NCBI RefSeq assembly: GCF_003605405.2
Contig: NZ_QYTW02000028.1
Coordinates: 1 to 64,000 of the forward strand
Direction: 5' to 3'
Length of the DNA stretch: 64,000 bases
Origin: Siminovitchia terrae
GTDB taxonomy: Bacteria; Bacillota; Bacilli; Bacillales; Bacillaceae_C
Positions 38,340 to 48,234 of this stretch are shown piece after piece. Position 1 is the first letter of the stretch; each line of letters begins with the position of its first letter. The position numbers and the translations under genes are program-made. Under the pieces are notes generated by a model. That model saw nothing but the letters and a program-made list of their open reading frames with translations. It was not told the origin of the DNA and ran no database searches.

Positions 38340-38977
38340 TTAGCAATGACTGTATCGGTAGTTACACAAGAAAATTTAGCAAATGTCTTCCATAGAATAA
38401 TCCGAATATCTCGATGCAGTACAAGTACCATAACGAGGAGTATCTTTTTTCATATTTCATAACACTTTTTCCATACATTTGGGAAGTATATGTATCCCAT
38501 TTTTGTTCGTTAGACTATTTTAGTTTTTTTACAACGTAACAAATGTATTAGATTGATGATACCTCAATACTACTATTGTTTCATCTAATACTCCACTGAA
38601 TAGTCAGATTTATACATTAATTATTATTTAACTATTAAAAAGGTAATTCCACATTTTTAATACACTAATCGCCTTGCAGGAATACTAGAATGTGTAAAGA
38701 TTAAGTGAAGTACTTAGGACCGAAGAAACCCCTCGAGCATCTGTCGCCCTAACGTTACCTGCAAGAGTGAAGATTTATAGTCTGATACTCCAAGGTAAAT
38801 CGGAAAGGTATTTCAATCGGCTACCAAAATATAAATCGAAAGTAAGAGAGAGGGATAGAAGGCTTTTACAGAAAAGTTAGAATTGGGTCAATCAACATTT
38901 AATTACCGGTGAAATGCCGTTTTTGTTATAATCTTGATGGGCGGTATCATTATTGAACTGCACCGTCGAGTGGCTGT
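38340..38977. other. 640-bp intergenic region, no gene seen
   Basis: AT-rich with no ORF that has a ribosome site. A GC-richer block at about 38705-38880 has no recognisable coding or RNA family signal. Confidence 0.45.
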
Positions 38978-39172
38978 TTTAACTTCATTCAGCAGAAGTC
39001 TCCCACTTCTGTAAGTGGTGAGATGAATGCGTATTGGTATTCCATTCAGTGGGGGTTCAAACCCCGGCTGAATAAAGTTAAGCCTCCGGCGGATGCCACA
39101 GATTTTCAGAGGAAATTTATCGAGCTTAAGCTCGATAAAATCTGGGCACAAATACGCCAAGGCGCATTTGAT
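38978..39172 (+). repeat. structured repeat, copy B
   Basis: A full copy with all the hairpins listed for copy A. Here the internal palindrome is perfect: TATCGAGC-TTAA-GCTCGATA. Same orientation as copy A, 2.35 kb apart, flanking the esterase pseudogene. Confidence 0.92.
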
Positions 39173-39312
39173 AAAGGGTTATCTGCCCGGATCCGTAATC
39201 GGACAGGGACAGAAGGATGAAAAGCATACGTGTAAAATCAGGATCCTTCTGCCTTCTTGCCGGGATTCTTTTTTGATTTATGAATCCATTTGGAGTAACA
39301 GGAGGAATGAAT

Positions 39313-42144: not shown

Positions 42145-42173
42145 TTGACAATAAATTTATCCCTGTATATAAT
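42145..42173 (+). promoter_or_regulatory. sigma-A promoter of the xdh operon
   Basis: TTGACA (42145-42150), a 17-bp spacer and TATAAT (42168-42173), both consensus. It starts a leader that carries the purine riboswitch 45 bp downstream. Confidence 0.88.
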
Positions 42174-42217
42174 GAAGGCGAAATCATCAAGTTCAGGCTG
42201 ACTTTTTAAATAGGCCA

Positions 42218-42327
42218 TTTTCGTATAACCCCGCTGTTTGGTGTGGGGGTTTCTACAGGGAACCGTAAACCTTGGCTACGAAAAGGCGCTTTCTTAATTT
42301 TGAAGGCTCCTTTTTGTAGCTTTTTTT
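42218..42327 (+). promoter_or_regulatory. purine riboswitch with overlapping terminator, predicted ON switch
   Basis: Aptamer 42218-42284: P1 TTTTCG/CGAAAA, J1/2 TATAA, P2 CCCCGC/GTGGGG, L2 ending TGG, J2/3 GTTTCTA, P3 CAGGG/CCTTG, L3 AACCGTAAA (CC available for the GG of L2), and J3/1 GCTA. The base equivalent to position 74 is C (42276), the guanine-type specificity base. The terminator stem GCTACGAAAAGG (42275-42286) / CCTTTTTGTAGC (42309-42320) plus seven T reuses J3/1 and the 3' strand of P1. Ligand binding should therefore prevent termination and switch the xdh operon on. Confidence 0.9.
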
Positions 42328-42436
42328 ATTTCCGGCTTCGGGTGTCAACCTTACTCGGTTCCTTCAGTAACTCCCCACATTACGACTTCATGTAACGTAA
42401 AGTAGCTCTATACAAAAATATATGGAGGTTGATCTC

Positions 42437-42922
42437 TTGAAAACGATCAAATTCAAGGTTAATGGCCAGGATGTCTCTGTAACCTGTCCGCCCAGCCAGC
42501 CGCTCCTTGACGTTCTGCGCAATGAATTGCAATTAACCGGAAGTAAGGAATGCTGCGGTAAAGGAGAGTGCGGTTCATGTACTGTGCTGGTCAATGATGT
42601 TGCCATCTGCTCTTGTCTTATGTTGATAGGACAAATTGAAAATGATAGCGTTGTCACGATTGAAGGAATCGGACAGACAGCAATCATGGATCCTATTCAA
42701 CAGGCTTTCTGCGACGAGGGAGCTACCCAATGCGGTTACTGCACACCAGGGTTCATCGTCATGGCCAGATCGTTTTTAGACAGTATCGATCATGTACCGA
42801 CCGCGGACGAAGTTATGAAGGCATTAAGCGGAAACCTTTGCCGGTGCACAGGGTATACAAAAATCATCAAAGCTGTACAGGCAGCGGCTAAAAAACAGTT
42901 ATTTCAGGAGATTTCCAATTGA
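42437..42922 (+). CDS. molybdenum hydroxylase, 2Fe-2S subunit (xanthine dehydrogenase type)
   Basis: 161 residues. The plant-type 2Fe-2S site is CCGKGECGSC with a later Cys (AICSC). The second, helical 2Fe-2S site is QCGYCTPGF...CRCTGY. The start is TTG 42437, with GGAGG 8 bases upstream; the in-frame ATG 42422 overlaps that ribosome site. It is the first gene behind the purine riboswitch. Electrons pass from the molybdenum site through these clusters to FAD. Confidence 0.93.
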   Translation: MKTIKFKVNGQDVSVTCPPSQPLLDVLRNELQLTGSKECCGKGECGSCTVLVNDVAICSCLMLIGQIENDSVVTIEGIGQTAIMDPIQQAFCDEGATQCGYCTPGFIVMARSFLDSIDHVPTADEVMKALSGNLCRCTGYTKIIKAVQAAAKKQLFQEISN

Positions 42923-43533
42923 ATTTTAAAACCGCAGGTCTACTGTTGGCAGCCGGGCTATCCAGCCGTATGGGGAAATTAAAAGCATTGCTTCCATGGG
43001 AAGGAATGCCTTTGATCCAATACCAGATTGAACAAATGAAACAGGCAGGTATTGATGAAATAATCGTAGTCCTTGGTTACAAGGCAGAATATCTGCAAAA
43101 AATAATTTCGACTTTTGAGATTAAAGCAGTAATAAATAAAAATTATGAATACGGAAAGAGTTCATCCATCCGAAAGGGGATTTCCAGCCTTCATAAAGAG
43201 GTGGATGGGATTTTTATCTCTGCAGTTGACCAGCCTGTACCTTCAGCCATTTTGAAAAAAATGAAGGCCCATCTGGAAGAAAACGAGGCAGCAGTTGTGA
43301 TTCCGACATATGAAATGAAGAGGGGCCACCCTATTTTGTTACATGCATCTACCAAGAATGATCTGCTGTTGGTAAATGAAGAGACATTGGGACTCAGAAG
43401 CGTAATTCGCAAGTACCAACAACAAATTGCTTACTTGGAGGTCAATGACCCATCCATTCTTTTAAACTTCAATAAACAGGAAGACTACGATAAAAGCGAT
43501 AGGGAGGCTTCAAATGAAAATTTCCGAGATTGA
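42919..43533 (+). CDS. molybdopterin cytidylyltransferase-like protein (MocA/PucB type)
   Basis: A 204-residue nucleotidyltransferase. The signature LLLAAGLSSRMGKLKALLPW is the NTP-binding loop, followed by VVLGYKAEYL, SAVDQP and RGHPILL. Members add CMP to the molybdenum cofactor for xanthine dehydrogenase-type enzymes. The start is TTG 42919 overlapping the previous stop, with AGGAGA upstream. Being inside the operon, it provides the dedicated cofactor form. Confidence 0.9.
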   Translation: MNFKTAGLLLAAGLSSRMGKLKALLPWEGMPLIQYQIEQMKQAGIDEIIVVLGYKAEYLQKIISTFEIKAVINKNYEYGKSSSIRKGISSLHKEVDGIFISAVDQPVPSAILKKMKAHLEENEAAVVIPTYEMKRGHPILLHASTKNDLLLVNEETLGLRSVIRKYQQQIAYLEVNDPSILLNFNKQEDYDKSDREASNENFRD

Positions 43534-44392
43534 TATGGTCACTCCGAAATCAGTAGAAGAATGCCTTTATTTTTTGAGTGATCAGGAAAAAGAGGTCCGA
43601 CTGATAGCTGGCGGAACGGATGCTGTCGTGCGGATGAAAGACGGCATTGGCAGGCCTGAGACCTGGATCAGCATAAAGGGGATGGATTCACTTAGATATA
43701 TTCGGGAAGAAAGCGATGGGATCCATATTGGGCCTTTGACGACACATACTGATATGATCCATTCACAGCTTTTATGGAAAAAAGCCGACGTACTGGCATC
43801 TGCTTCAAACGAAGTCGGCGCTATCCAGATTCAGAATATGGGGACAATCGGAGGTAATCTGGGGACAGCATCGCCGGCAGGTGATACGATTCCTCCTCTA
43901 TTTGTACTCGATGCCCGAATCGAACTAAGCTCCATTAAGGGAAAGAGGATCGTTCCCATAACGGAATTTTTCAATGGACCCGGCCATACGATACAGAAGC
44001 CAAACGAGATGATCACTGATATCAATATCCGTCCTCAAGAGGAAAATGAAATGGGCACCTTTGAAAAGCTTGGCCCTAGAAAAGCGCAGTCCATTTCAAT
44101 TGTCAATGTGGCCATGTCATTAAAAATGGGAGAAGGTCAGCGCGAGTGTCTCGAAGGGAGGATCGCTTTCGGTTCAGTAGGGCCTACAGTCATCCGAGCA
44201 TCTAAATGTGAAAGAATGCTCACTCTCAGCTCTCTTACTGATGATACGATCAAAGATGTAGCTGATATTGCATGGAAGGAAGTCATGCCGATCACGGACG
44301 GAAGAGCAACGGCGAAATACAGAAGAAGCATGGCGAGCGCTCTATTAGCTCGGGGACTATACCGGCTAATGAAAAGGTGGGATGAAAAGTGA
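43514..44392 (+). CDS. molybdenum hydroxylase, FAD-binding subunit
   Basis: 292 residues of the CoxM/XdhB type. FAD contacts are LIAGGTDAVVRMKDG and IQIQNMGTIGGNLGTASPAG. The C-terminal domain ends ATAKYRRSMASALLARGL. It overlaps the end of the cytidylyltransferase gene by 20 bp. GGGAGG precedes the ATG. Confidence 0.93.
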   Translation: MKISEIDMVTPKSVEECLYFLSDQEKEVRLIAGGTDAVVRMKDGIGRPETWISIKGMDSLRYIREESDGIHIGPLTTHTDMIHSQLLWKKADVLASASNEVGAIQIQNMGTIGGNLGTASPAGDTIPPLFVLDARIELSSIKGKRIVPITEFFNGPGHTIQKPNEMITDINIRPQEENEMGTFEKLGPRKAQSISIVNVAMSLKMGEGQRECLEGRIAFGSVGPTVIRASKCERMLTLSSLTDDTIKDVADIAWKEVMPITDGRATAKYRRSMASALLARGLYRLMKRWDEK

Positions 44393-46734
44393 GACGACAA
44401 ATAAAGGGGCTGAAAAAGTCGGGTACTGATGAAATGTTAAAATGGGTCGGAAAACCAGTCAATAGAATTGATGGTCCTGAAAAAGTAACTGGAGAGCAAA
44501 AATATATGACAGATTATCATTATCCTGACATGACGTTCGGAAAAGTCCTCCGTTCCAAATATCCATTTGCCAAAATAAAATCTATCGATACATCAAATGC
44601 TAAGGCACACCCTGAGGTAATCTGTGTTTTAACGCATGAGGATGTCCCTGGATTTAATGGATTTGGAATCGTCACACCCGATCAGCCTGTGTTATGTGAA
44701 GATATTGTCAGATGCACTGGAGATGCAATTGCTCTTGTTGCCGCGGAAACTCTTGAAGCTGCTGAAGAAGCGCTGGGCCTGATTGAGGTGGATTATGAGC
44801 CATTAGAAGCCGTGACTGACCCTGAAAACGCCATGGTTCAGGGGGCGCCGCAGCTGCACCCGGAAGGAAATATTCATAGCCATGTCGTCATAAAAAGCGG
44901 TGACATCGACAAAGGATTTGAAGAGGCTGACTTCATCTTTGAAAATACATTTTATTCCCCGAGGCAAATGCATGCCTTCCTGGAAACCGAAGGTGGATGG
45001 GGAAAGGTTGATGAAAATGGCTCTCTGACCATTCAATGCCCTAGCCAATATGGCCATCGCGATAAGCTTCAAATCGCACGAGCCCTAGCGTTGAACCCAC
45101 AGCGCATTCATGTCCATTCCAGCCCGAATGGCGGGGGCTTCGGCGGAAAAGACGAAATTACCGTCCAAATCTATCTAGCATTGTTGGCTTTAAATACGAA
45201 TGGAAGGCCGGTGAAGCTTCATCTGTCACGAGAAGAATCAGTAGTTGCCGGCATTAAACGCCACCCATTTAAAGTTACAGTGAAAACGGGGGCGAAAAAA
45301 GATGGAACCATCGTAGCCCACAAAGTCCGTGCAGTGGCTGATACCGGGGCTTACGCTTCATTGGGAGGGGCAGTGGTCGCATTGGCCATTGAACATGCAG
45401 CAGGTCCTTATAAAATAGAGAATGTCGACATGGAAGGCTTTTGTGTTTATACAAATAATGGTATCTCTGGTGCATTTCGCGGATTCGGTGTCAACCAGGT
45501 GTGCGTTGGAATTGAGACACATATTGATATGCTGGCGGAAAAAATAGGGCTGGATCCGATTGAAATTAGAATGAAAAATGCTTATCGTCAAGGCGATGTC
45601 TCTAGTCTGGGCCATGTTGTAAAATCAAGTGTCGGTACCATGGAGACCCTTGAAAGGGCGCAAGCAAGCGATCTTTGGGCAAATCGCGATCTTTATAAAG
45701 TGCAGGCAACGGAGCCTTGGAAAAAGCGCGGAGTGGCTCTTGCAACTTCGTTTCATGCTGTTGGAATGGGTCTCCGGACTCCGGATTATGGAGCATCCTC
45801 CATTGAACTATTGGAAGATGGGAGATTCAAAGTCGGTTTAGCCATTGAAGAAATCGGTACGGGAAACGGGACAGTGTATGCACAGGTGGCAGCCGAGTGC
45901 TTAAAGTGCGATATCGATCATATTGTGGTCATACAAGGAGATACGAAAGAAACTTTGGACAGCGGAACGATTTCGGCTTCAAGGTCAACGTATACTGGTG
46001 GCCGAGCCATCGCGACAGCCGCAATCAATATGGTCAGCTTGCTTTCTGAAACAGCGGCAGAAATATTGGGAGCATCGGTGGATCAAATTGTTGTTTCGCA
46101 GAATAAGCTGACTGCATCCTCAAGTGAAAGCCGTTCTGTTTCCTATAAAGAAATGTATCAGGCGCTGAAGGAAAAAAATCAATCCACCCGTGTTGAAGGG
46201 CATTTTTATTTTCCTCGTGAAAAAAAAGAATTGAAAAATTCCGGTGGAGCACCCCATCATTTATATGGCTATATGACCCATGTTGTAATGGTTGAAGTAG
46301 ACACTTTAACGGGAGAAACGGACGTTTTGAAAGTAGTCGCCATTCCTGATGTGGGAAAGGTGTTGAATCCACAGGGACTGGAGGGACAGACGGAGGGGGG
46401 AGCCATTATGGGGATCGGCTACACTTTGTATGAAGATGTCATCATGAAAAATGGTTATCATCAAACGAGAAATCTCACAGATTACATCATCCCGACAATC
46501 AGGGAAACTCCGGTGATTGAAACAATTCCGGTTGAATCAATGGAAGCATCCGGACCATTTGGCGCAAAGGGGGTTGCCGAGGTTGTGATGATTCCGATCA
46601 TTCCAGCGATTTTGAATGCCATCTATGATGCAGTAGGTGTCAGAATAAAGAAGCTTCCAGCCAAACCGGAGCAGATTTTCCAAGCAATTCAGGAGTCAAA
46701 GTCACATGAACTTATTTCGGGTGATGCATATTGA
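44389..46734 (+). CDS. molybdenum hydroxylase, molybdopterin-binding catalytic subunit
   Basis: A 781-residue CoxL/XdhA-type subunit. Motifs are KVTGEQKYMTD, the molybdopterin contacts NGGGFGGKDE and SGAFRGFGVNQ, SASRSTYTGGRAIA, and a C-terminal active-site Glu in GPFGAKGVAEVVMIP. The GTG 44389 start overlaps the FAD gene by 4 bp; ATG 44434 is an alternative. The riboswitch points to a purine (hypoxanthine/xanthine) substrate, but the specificity of this family cannot be fixed from sequence alone. Confidence 0.92.
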   Translation: MRRQIKGLKKSGTDEMLKWVGKPVNRIDGPEKVTGEQKYMTDYHYPDMTFGKVLRSKYPFAKIKSIDTSNAKAHPEVICVLTHEDVPGFNGFGIVTPDQPVLCEDIVRCTGDAIALVAAETLEAAEEALGLIEVDYEPLEAVTDPENAMVQGAPQLHPEGNIHSHVVIKSGDIDKGFEEADFIFENTFYSPRQMHAFLETEGGWGKVDENGSLTIQCPSQYGHRDKLQIARALALNPQRIHVHSSPNGGGFGGKDEITVQIYLALLALNTNGRPVKLHLSREESVVAGIKRHPFKVTVKTGAKKDGTIVAHKVRAVADTGAYASLGGAVVALAIEHAAGPYKIENVDMEGFCVYTNNGISGAFRGFGVNQVCVGIETHIDMLAEKIGLDPIEIRMKNAYRQGDVSSLGHVVKSSVGTMETLERAQASDLWANRDLYKVQATEPWKKRGVALATSFHAVGMGLRTPDYGASSIELLEDGRFKVGLAIEEIGTGNGTVYAQVAAECLKCDIDHIVVIQGDTKETLDSGTISASRSTYTGGRAIATAAINMVSLLSETAAEILGASVDQIVVSQNKLTASSSESRSVSYKEMYQALKEKNQSTRVEGHFYFPREKKELKNSGGAPHHLYGYMTHVVMVEVDTLTGETDVLKVVAIPDVGKVLNPQGLEGQTEGGAIMGIGYTLYEDVIMKNGYHQTRNLTDYIIPTIRETPVIETIPVESMEASGPFGAKGVAEVVMIPIIPAILNAIYDAVGVRIKKLPAKPEQIFQAIQESKSHELISGDAY

Positions 46735-47576
46735 TGAGCAAACAAATGTATGCGAAGCTTTTGAAGTCTATTAAGGACGGTCAAAAAGACATCGCTCTTG
46801 TTACCATTACGAAGCATTTTGACGAATCGTTGATTGGCTCAAAGATTCTATTTCAGGAAAACGGAGTCCTCCTTGCCGATCCGGGGCTGTCAAAAGGGTT
46901 CCAAGCTGTAATTCTTGAAAAAGTTTTGCCATTTTTTGAAAAAGGTGTTACAAAAGCTGTGCAGTTTGAATACGGGGATTGCCAATTTGAATGCTATATG
47001 GAAGTGTTTCCGGTACCGCCGCGTCTAATTGTGGCGGGAGCAGGTCATGTATCTGAGCCAGTGGTGAAAATCGGCAAAATGACAGGCTTCCATGTAACGG
47101 TCATAGATGATCGTCCTGATTTTGCAAACAAAGAGCGGTTTCCCACAGCAGACGAAGTTGTCTGTGCACCGTATGTCGAATTCTTTAAGGCGCTCCATGT
47201 CAGCCCAGGTACATTTATTGTATTGCTTACAAGAGGGCATAAATTTGATGTTGTCAGCCTGCAGGAACTATTAAGAAGGGAGGAGGCCATTCCTAAGGAA
47301 GATCGGACGGCCTATATCGGAATGATTGGAAGTAAGCGCCGGATTGCTGGAGTTTTCGAGCAATTGAAAAATGAATTTTCTGATCATAGTTTTACGAATA
47401 TTTATTCTCCTGTAGGACTTGATATCGGAGGACAGACACCTGCTGAAATTGCTGTCAGCATCATGGCTGAAGTTTTAAAAGTGAAAAACGGAAAAAGCGG
47501 AAATTCATTAAAGGAGAAAATTTCGAGCTATTCGCAATTGAAGTTTAGGGAGAGAGTGAAAAATGAGCACTCTTGA
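46734..47576 (+). CDS. XdhC/CoxI-family protein, Rossmann part
   Basis: About 280 residues. The Rossmann core begins RLIVAGAGHVSEPVVKIGKM and includes VTVIDDRPDFANKERFP, VLLTRGHKFD, YIGMIGSKRR and SPVGLDIGGQTPAEIAVSIM. XdhC proteins load and sulfurate the molybdenum cofactor for xanthine dehydrogenase. Starts at 46731 (TTG) and 46734 (ATG) both fit GGGTGA. The classical N-terminal CoxI segment is encoded separately by the next gene. Confidence 0.88.
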   Translation: MSKQMYAKLLKSIKDGQKDIALVTITKHFDESLIGSKILFQENGVLLADPGLSKGFQAVILEKVLPFFEKGVTKAVQFEYGDCQFECYMEVFPVPPRLIVAGAGHVSEPVVKIGKMTGFHVTVIDDRPDFANKERFPTADEVVCAPYVEFFKALHVSPGTFIVLLTRGHKFDVVSLQELLRREEAIPKEDRTAYIGMIGSKRRIAGVFEQLKNEFSDHSFTNIYSPVGLDIGGQTPAEIAVSIMAEVLKVKNGKSGNSLKEKISSYSQLKFRERVKNEHS

Positions 47577-47880
47577 ATTTTTCGAAAAGGTTATGTCTAT
47601 ACGAGAAAGAGGCAGCTGTGCAGCTGTCGCGACGGTCATTCGAACTAAGGGATCCACGCCAAGAGAAACTGGTGCGAAGATGCTTATTTATCCGGACGGT
47701 CAAATATTCGGAACGATCGGGGGCGGCTGCGGTGAAGGTGAAGTGATTGAAAAAGCTTTAATCGTTATGGATAGAGGAATCCCGCTGCACCATCAAGTTG
47801 ATTTGACAGAAGGTTTAATGTATGAGGACGGCGGCATTTGTGGAGGAATTATGGATGTGTTTATTGAGCCGGTGACATAA
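47563..47880 (+). CDS. XdhC/CoxI N-terminal-domain protein
   Basis: 105 residues covering only the CoxI-type N-terminal domain: CAAVATVIRTKGSTPRETGA, GGGCGEGEVIEKAL and ICGGIMDVFIEP. The conserved Cys residues for cofactor handling are present. It overlaps the end of the Rossmann-part gene by 14 bp. Together the pair equals one normal XdhC with its domains in reversed gene order. A terminator follows. Confidence 0.87.
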   Translation: MSTLEFFEKVMSIRERGSCAAVATVIRTKGSTPRETGAKMLIYPDGQIFGTIGGGCGEGEVIEKALIVMDRGIPLHHQVDLTEGLMYEDGGICGGIMDVFIEPVT

Positions 47881-47923: not shown

Positions 47924-47950
47924 TGGTAGACTTGTCCTCTGTACAATTGA

Positions 47951-48133
47951 TTTAACTTCATTCAGCAGAAGTCTCCCACTTCTGTAAGTGGTGAGATGAA
48001 TGCATATTGGTATTCCATTCAGTGGGGGTTCAACCCCCGGCTGAATAAAGTTAAAGCCTCCGGCGGATGCCACAGATTTTATCGAGCAGAGCTCGATAAA
48101 ATCTGGGCGCAAATACGCCAAGTCGCATTTGAT
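47951..48133 (+). repeat. structured repeat, copy C
   Basis: A copy with a 12-bp deletion (CAGAGGAAATTT missing) between ACAGATTT and TATCGAGC. The tip reads GTCGCATTTGAT instead of GGCGCATTTGAT. It was inserted right after the xdh terminator; the upstream bases are GATTTAAC. Confidence 0.9.
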
Positions 48134-48234
48134 AGCCCTGAGCAACTTGGAACGGTCACATAGAAGGGCTTTATACGCTTAAAAATACCAGTTATTACGG
48201 TTGGAATAGGAGTTCATTCACTCTCTATAACGGT

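Follow-up and report, generated by a model that had tools for sequence, protein, structure and literature searches.

In the window, the whole 64-kb stretch of DNA that was analysed, a purine aptamer follows a consensus promoter and precedes a xanthine-dehydrogenase-type operon of six genes, which raises the questions of whether it turns the operon on or off and which purine it would recognize. The initial annotation had described a purine switch ahead of xanthine dehydrogenase-type genes; that observation is confirmed, and the interpretation attached to it is supported in part. The explanation that is considered very probable is a purine riboswitch that activates transcription of the operon, with a 6-oxopurine as its ligand.

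Architecture of the aptamer

A cmscan search gives an RF00167 (Rfam Purine) match at 42201-42298 (52.9 bits, E 3.6e-6, gathering score 37), the sole match to any Rfam family at gathering level in the window. With U51 and C74 (42276) both present, the assignment to the guanine type of purine aptamer holds. P1 comprises 8 bp (42218-42225/42277-42284) and is extended by GCC/GGC out to 42214 and 42287. The elements of the leader up to this point are listed below; positions 22, 52 and 73 are given the structural roles usual in purine riboswitches.

42145..42173, + strand: promoter-like site TTGACA-17-TATAAT (12 of 12 consensus positions; predicted, consensus match only)
42214..42225, + strand: P1 5' strand, GCC, bulged A, UUUUCGUA (sequence; pair counts)
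42226..42228, + strand: J1/2, UAA, with U22 at 42226 (cmscan alignment)
42229..42248, + strand: P2 and L2, 6 bp, L2 GG complementary to L3 CC (both-sided changes at 3 of 6 P2 pairs)
42249..42256, + strand: J2/3, GUUUCUAC, with U51 and A52, of guanine-I length (sequence, alignment of relatives)
42257..42273, + strand: P3/L3, AGGG-AACCGUAAA-CCUU, 4 bp with a 9-nt loop, 3' strand 2 bases shorter than the Rfam consensus (cmscan, alignment)
42274..42276, + strand: J3/1, a variable base (G in the window, A or U in relatives), an invariant G and C74 (alignment)
42277..42287, + strand: P1 3' strand, doubling as part of the terminator left arm (cmscan, folding)

Covariation in the helices of the three-way junction, by which membership of the RF00167 superfamily is judged, is present. 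In an alignment of 14 aptamers linked to xanthine dehydrogenase-type genes (xdh-linked; 13 distinct), fitted to the structure beforehand, 98.1% of the helix cells pair and both-sided changes occur at seven of 21 pairs. The core is well conserved among the seven Siminovitchia-group and Virgibacillus copies, with a mean column identity of 94%.

Terminator and direction of control

The aptamer is followed by a single overlapping element:

42274..42327, + strand: intrinsic terminator, 13 bp, a C/U mismatch and 6 bp, with an 8-nt loop and a U-run (-27.5 kcal/mol; z -7.05 against 200 shuffles, terminator folded alone)

This had been annotated as a 12-bp terminator built from J3/1 and P1. The overlap is exact, but the stem is longer, with 13 bp (42274-42286/42309-42321) before the mismatch and six pairs beyond it. 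The left arm begins in J3/1 (42274) and takes all 8 bases of the P1 3' strand, so that aptamer and terminator are mutually exclusive in an ON arrangement, as had been proposed. Folding of the growing transcript places P1 at 0.97-0.98 up to about nt 42310 and the terminator at 1.0 by 42322, and forcing P1 in the full leader costs 9.5 kcal/mol in the window (7.0-14.2 kcal/mol over seven sequences). The same order of folding is obtained in all seven sequences computed, window included, with the V. indicus terminator peaking at 0.91. Downstream re-pairing of 7-8 of the 8 P1 3' bases is found in 13 of the 14 xdh-linked leaders (for L084 and L088 the U-run behind the re-pairing stem was judged by eye), the sole exception being L085 (genome G128), where no clear terminator is seen. 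In the seven close-copy terminators 97.7% of the cells are paired; both-sided changes occur at none of the 19 pairs, no better than shuffles, and the case for terminator pairing is thus one of conservation and energy.

An OFF design is ruled out because the terminator itself contains the P1 3' strand, and translational control is not favoured because the Shine-Dalgarno sequence lies about 100 nt beyond the terminator. A transcriptional ON reading is strongly supported. RNA begun near 42180 would fold the three-way-junction aptamer first. A 6-oxopurine (xanthine, hypoxanthine or guanine) would then pair with C74 and be held by U51, locking P1; its 3' strand and J3/1 would be barred from the terminator and the operon would be read. 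The ligand would have to lock P1 before the terminator can form. With no ligand, P1 would yield to the terminator before polymerase had gone more than about 10 nt further, and transcription would stop ahead of the operon. The pbuE adenine riboswitch of B. subtilis is likewise an ON switch whose terminator overlaps P1, but it carries U74 and responds to adenine, whereas the window has C74.

The junction variant

The initial annotation had position 73 as G instead of the usual A. G does adjoin C74, but a plain A73G substitution is ruled out once relatives are aligned; the real difference, visible only in that alignment, is in the length of J3/1. Ahead of C74, all seven close copies read CCUU-N-G-C74, where N (42274) is G in the window, A in five copies and U in one, the G at 42275 is invariant (7/7) and J2/3 keeps the guanine-I length. 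With P3 taken as AGGG/CCUU, this pattern gives J3/1 one additional base and leaves the P3 3' strand two bases shorter. Judged by its sequence, the aptamer is a distinct junction variant, with one extra J3/1 base and P3 shortened on its 3' side. U51 is present in all 14 xdh-linked aptamers.

The guanine-I consensus has A73 directly 5' of C74; all seven close copies have G there instead. Across the 14 xdh-linked aptamers the adjoining base is G in nine, U in three, C in one and A in one, and it differs from A in six of seven lineages. Of 63 background aptamers, 62 have A there, one of the 62 with U74 (some rows read by eye); this background comprises 40 of about 150 listed RF00167 matches of the family and all 23 non-xdh matches of the genus. 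Fisher values for the comparison (1e-12 by row; 4e-7 by lineage, with A in 1/7) serve as guides only, given the relatedness of the rows and a background selected by hand. However, this base had to be given up as a marker for xdh switches: 30 of the 44 non-xdh aptamers found with model R1 also lack A before C74 (4/16 in the order set and 26/28 in the class set; L078 by eye), a biased rate since R1 itself rewards G there. The genes behind them encode an amidohydrolase, an FAD-oxidoreductase, a permease and others, and a non-A base is therefore no mark of an xdh ligand.

Distribution of the aptamer

The same arrangement, which the initial annotation had suggested looking for upstream of other xdh genes, was found in the genus, in Virgibacillus, in other genomes of the order and in the class. 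The 14 xdh-linked aptamers come from five genus genomes, two Virgibacillus, six other order genomes and one class genome. Aptamer and orthologous operon occur together in five of six genus genomes (L005 and L025-L028; 51-53 bits); the sixth, G028, has no aptamer, and its sole Mo-subunit match is distant (31%). Named orthologues in Siminovitchia, S. fortis and S. fordii among them, are 89-92% identical. The named loci L029, L030, L031 and L034 have aptamers identical to those of L027, L026, L028 and L025, respectively; they therefore probably represent the same genomes and were counted once. In the two Virgibacillus the aptamer again precedes the operon, with a Mo subunit 78-80% identical. In L034 (2491-2578) and L029 (1137-1225) the xdh-linked aptamer is preceded, at a distance of about 1.2 kb, by a pan-motif RNA (RF01749), which is absent from the window.

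The aptamer goes with one enzyme clade. Across 397 genomes of the order, the clade of the FeS subunit has ten members (61-100% identity, the window's included; support 98/94), of which seven have a purine aptamer just upstream (six of nine leaving out the window's own). None was found within 8 kb upstream of the other three members, nor at the 20 next FeS genes (44-52%), 11 of which were covered by an Rfam scan and nine by a loose motif scan alone; the one motif match among these 20, L095, received no support from Rfam and was discarded. Within the clade the best tree implies four riboswitch gains or losses, and a single event appears in 0 of 200 bootstrap trees; a single origin is compatible with the well-supported branches taken alone.

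Model R1 matched 22 of the 397 order genomes at E 1e-7, the 22 loci consisting of six xdh-linked (own included) and 16 ahead of other genes. In the class sample 62 of 398 genomes matched, and the 29 loci read besides the window's contained one more xdh-linked aptamer (L121).

The operon and its enzyme

The features downstream of the terminator are the following:

42424..42428, + strand: Shine-Dalgarno-like GGAGG, start TTG at 42437 (sequence; GGAGG and TTG also in relatives)
42437..42922, + strand: [2Fe-2S] subunit, PucE/XdhC-like (TIGR03198 166 bits, cut-off 254; Pfam Fer2_2)
42919..43533, + strand: MocA/PucB-like molybdenum cofactor nucleotidyltransferase (profile matches)
43514..44392, + strand: FAD subunit, XdhB/PucC-like (profile matches)
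44389..46734, + strand: molybdopterin subunit, PucD-like (TIGR03196 697 bits, cut-off 784)
46731..47576, + strand: XdhC-family maturation factor, Rossmann half (Pfam XdhC_C)
47563..47880, + strand: XdhC/CoxI N-terminal half, a separate gene (Pfam XdhC_CoxI)

That the genes belong to the xanthine dehydrogenase family is upheld: the best NCBIfam match of the Mo subunit is pucD (697 bits, below the cut-off of 784), and this subunit is the best of three matches to TIGR03196 in the genome, the other two scoring 325 and 315. Three points count against the proposed explanation. The subunit scores fall below the NCBIfam equivalog cut-offs; the nearest PDB entries to the Mo subunit by sequence are 4-hydroxybenzoyl-CoA reductase and nicotinate dehydrogenase, which makes the purine substrate a putative one; and the genome contains no match to urate oxidase (TIGR03383). 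The description of the enzyme as purine-catabolic is likewise putative. The surroundings of related operons support a purine substrate: Xan_ur_permease adjoins the operon in V. indicus, V. alimentarius and G274, and the V. indicus operon also neighbours an adenine deaminase and, upstream, an amidohydrolase above the NCBIfam cut-off for 5'-deoxyadenosine deaminase.

The XdhC maturation factor (46731-47880) is split into two overlapping genes whose order is reversed relative to the single-protein profile; the Virgibacillus counterparts, judged by likeness, are similar.

A dispersed repeat of about 190 bp occurs in the window at 47948-48134 and 38975-39173. At least 40 near-full-length copies, 90-100% identical, are present in the genome; this is a floor, as 40 of 594 candidates were scored and the second copy in the window falls outside these 40. 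A similar stretch lies behind the xpt-like switch L003. The repeat matches no Rfam family at gathering level, and our guess is that it is a non-autonomous mobile element.

Other purine switches in the genome and its relatives

The statement that guanine-type switches usually turn genes off fits three other switches of this genome, which look OFF-type by eye and precede genes that we take to be pbuG-like, purE-like and xpt-like. It does not fit L004 of the same genome, a C74 aptamer that precedes an MFS pump and whose terminator looks ON-type by eye, and the ON design is thus not unique to the xdh copy. L004 and L020-L024 are all C74 guanine-type aptamers with an ON-type terminator by eye, and their MFS pump resembles PbuE, which in B. 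subtilis is served by an adenine switch.

Several further groups were seen. L110-L119, from one large-genome genus, have U at position 24, G before C74 and ON-type terminators (by eye), and precede amidohydrolase genes (named from a Pfam run on L110 only); we presume that they could belong to the 8-oxoguanine riboswitch class, on which the literature search returned no paper. L123, L124 and L127-L137, from three genera of the class, are purine aptamers followed by a gene resembling FAD-dependent oxidoreductases (judged from L128, the one locus given a Pfam run), with GG before C74 in all except L137. L066, L072, L074, L076, L079 and L126 are U74 adenine-type aptamers, presumably ahead of adenosine deaminase-like genes.

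Comparison with known riboswitches

The window aptamer shares with guanine-I (RF00167, xpt type) the three-way junction, U22, U51, A52, C74, the length of J2/3 and the L3 CC. It differs in being an ON rather than the usual OFF switch, in standing before an oxidising enzyme and in its extra J3/1 base, the G before C74 and a P3 3' strand two bases shorter.

An ON switch before xanthine dehydrogenase had been presented as a departure from the guanine type. It does reverse the usual OFF arrangement, but a precedent with another pocket, xanthine-II, has already been published (PMC9295807). As described in the available text of that paper, xanthine-II carries U51G, a two-base J2/3 insertion and a J3/1 insertion, is consistent with ON control and has xanthine dehydrogenase among the genes of its 34 representatives. 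The window aptamer resembles it in scaffold, ON-consistent design and link to xanthine dehydrogenase (the enzyme name being below the NCBIfam cut-off). Unlike xanthine-II it keeps U51 and has no two-base J2/3 insertion, and it occurs in lineages other than Paenibacillus, Propionispira and Clostridium, which that text names for the three groups of xanthine-II. The J3/1 insertion may be a further likeness: J3/1 has one extra base if P3 is AGGG/CCUU, a comparison made with the published insertion by text description only. A pattern search for U51G in 250 class genomes gave no xanthine-II among the 33 matches listed, read by eye, which comprised purine switches with U51 along with unrelated sequence; because exact flanks were required by the pattern, true cases may have escaped it, and the published variant is therefore compared by text only.

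Guanine-II, in the same text, has U51 and a one-base J2/3 insertion, is predicted to be ON and mostly precedes phosphoribosyltransferases. The window variant shares with it U51, C74, the predicted ON control and a J3/1 change that the text implies, but lacks the J2/3 insertion and precedes xdh instead of phosphoribosyltransferase genes. The nucleoside hydrolase link of 2'-dG-III (PMC9295807) is missing at the window operon. As the text of PMC9295807 describes them, the window variant fits none of these three classes. Xanthine-I (NMT1), according to the text seen of PMC7373994, shares the link to purine oxidation but has another fold and is an OFF switch, likely acting on translation initiation.

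In a literature search that took in few subscription papers, PMC9295807 alone joined 'guanine riboswitch' with 'xanthine dehydrogenase'; in the available text of PMC13328217, 'purine riboswitch' and 'xanthine dehydrogenase' both occur only in the reference list. The search gave nothing useful on A73.

Ligand and implications

Two readings of the ligand are nested within the activating riboswitch proposed here. According to the first, which falls a little short of probable, a guanine-I aptamer has been put to use as an ON switch, with guanine as natural ligand and with the J3/1 and P3 changes due to drift or to service in the terminator. U51, A52, C74 and the guanine-I length of J2/3 are all kept, an invariant C of the terminator is the pairing partner of the G before C74 (and this pairing may be why the G is kept), a C74 ON-type switch precedes the MFS pump in the same genome, and a non-A base is also found at non-xdh genes (30/44 with R1, which rewards G). 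The guanine-I pocket, moreover, favours guanine over hypoxanthine and xanthine by only about 10-fold in the account available from PMC9295807. Against this, A precedes C74 in only one of 14 xdh-linked aptamers as opposed to 62 of 63 in the background, and the ON-type switches before the MFS pump retain A, so that the ON design does not force the base change.

The second reading, which is possible though doubtful, is a class of its own in specificity, with a preference for xanthine or hypoxanthine and an origin apart from xanthine-II. The gene link, ON design and probable J3/1 insertion recall what the text of PMC9295807 gives for xanthine-II, in another pocket context, and a non-A base precedes C74 in six of seven xdh-linked lineages. 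However, the U51G and two-base J2/3 insertion of xanthine-II are missing, the base before C74 varies (G, U, C, A) across the lineages with no single signature, and G at this position is common at other genes.

A decayed aptamer, with a terminator that is now constitutive or controlled otherwise, is very unlikely: P3 is short, L2 of V. alimentarius is without the usual GG and the ligand-free terminator wins by 7.0-14.2 kcal/mol in all seven sequences, but the core is conserved in seven copies (94% mean column identity) with paired helix changes.

For an activating riboswitch with a 6-oxopurine ligand, the finding would mean that the pocket of the guanine riboswitch has probably been turned to the induction of purine oxidation, in an RNA whose junction differs from those of the variants in the text of PMC9295807. 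It is conceivable, if rather unlikely, that the locus represents a further natural specificity class on the purine scaffold, for xanthine or hypoxanthine, which keeps U51, lengthens J3/1 and shortens P3 and which came independently to the task that xanthine-II performs, the induction of xanthine dehydrogenase by its substrate; it would be spread over the Siminovitchia group, Virgibacillus and other Bacillaceae-like lineages, the junctions of these last being different. That G stands before C74 in many aptamers ahead of varied genes suggests further ligand or design groups inside RF00167. If the ligand is xanthine or hypoxanthine, the scaffold would have reached such a specificity by a second route, and the variant would offer a test of the part played by J3/1 and P3 in ligand choice.
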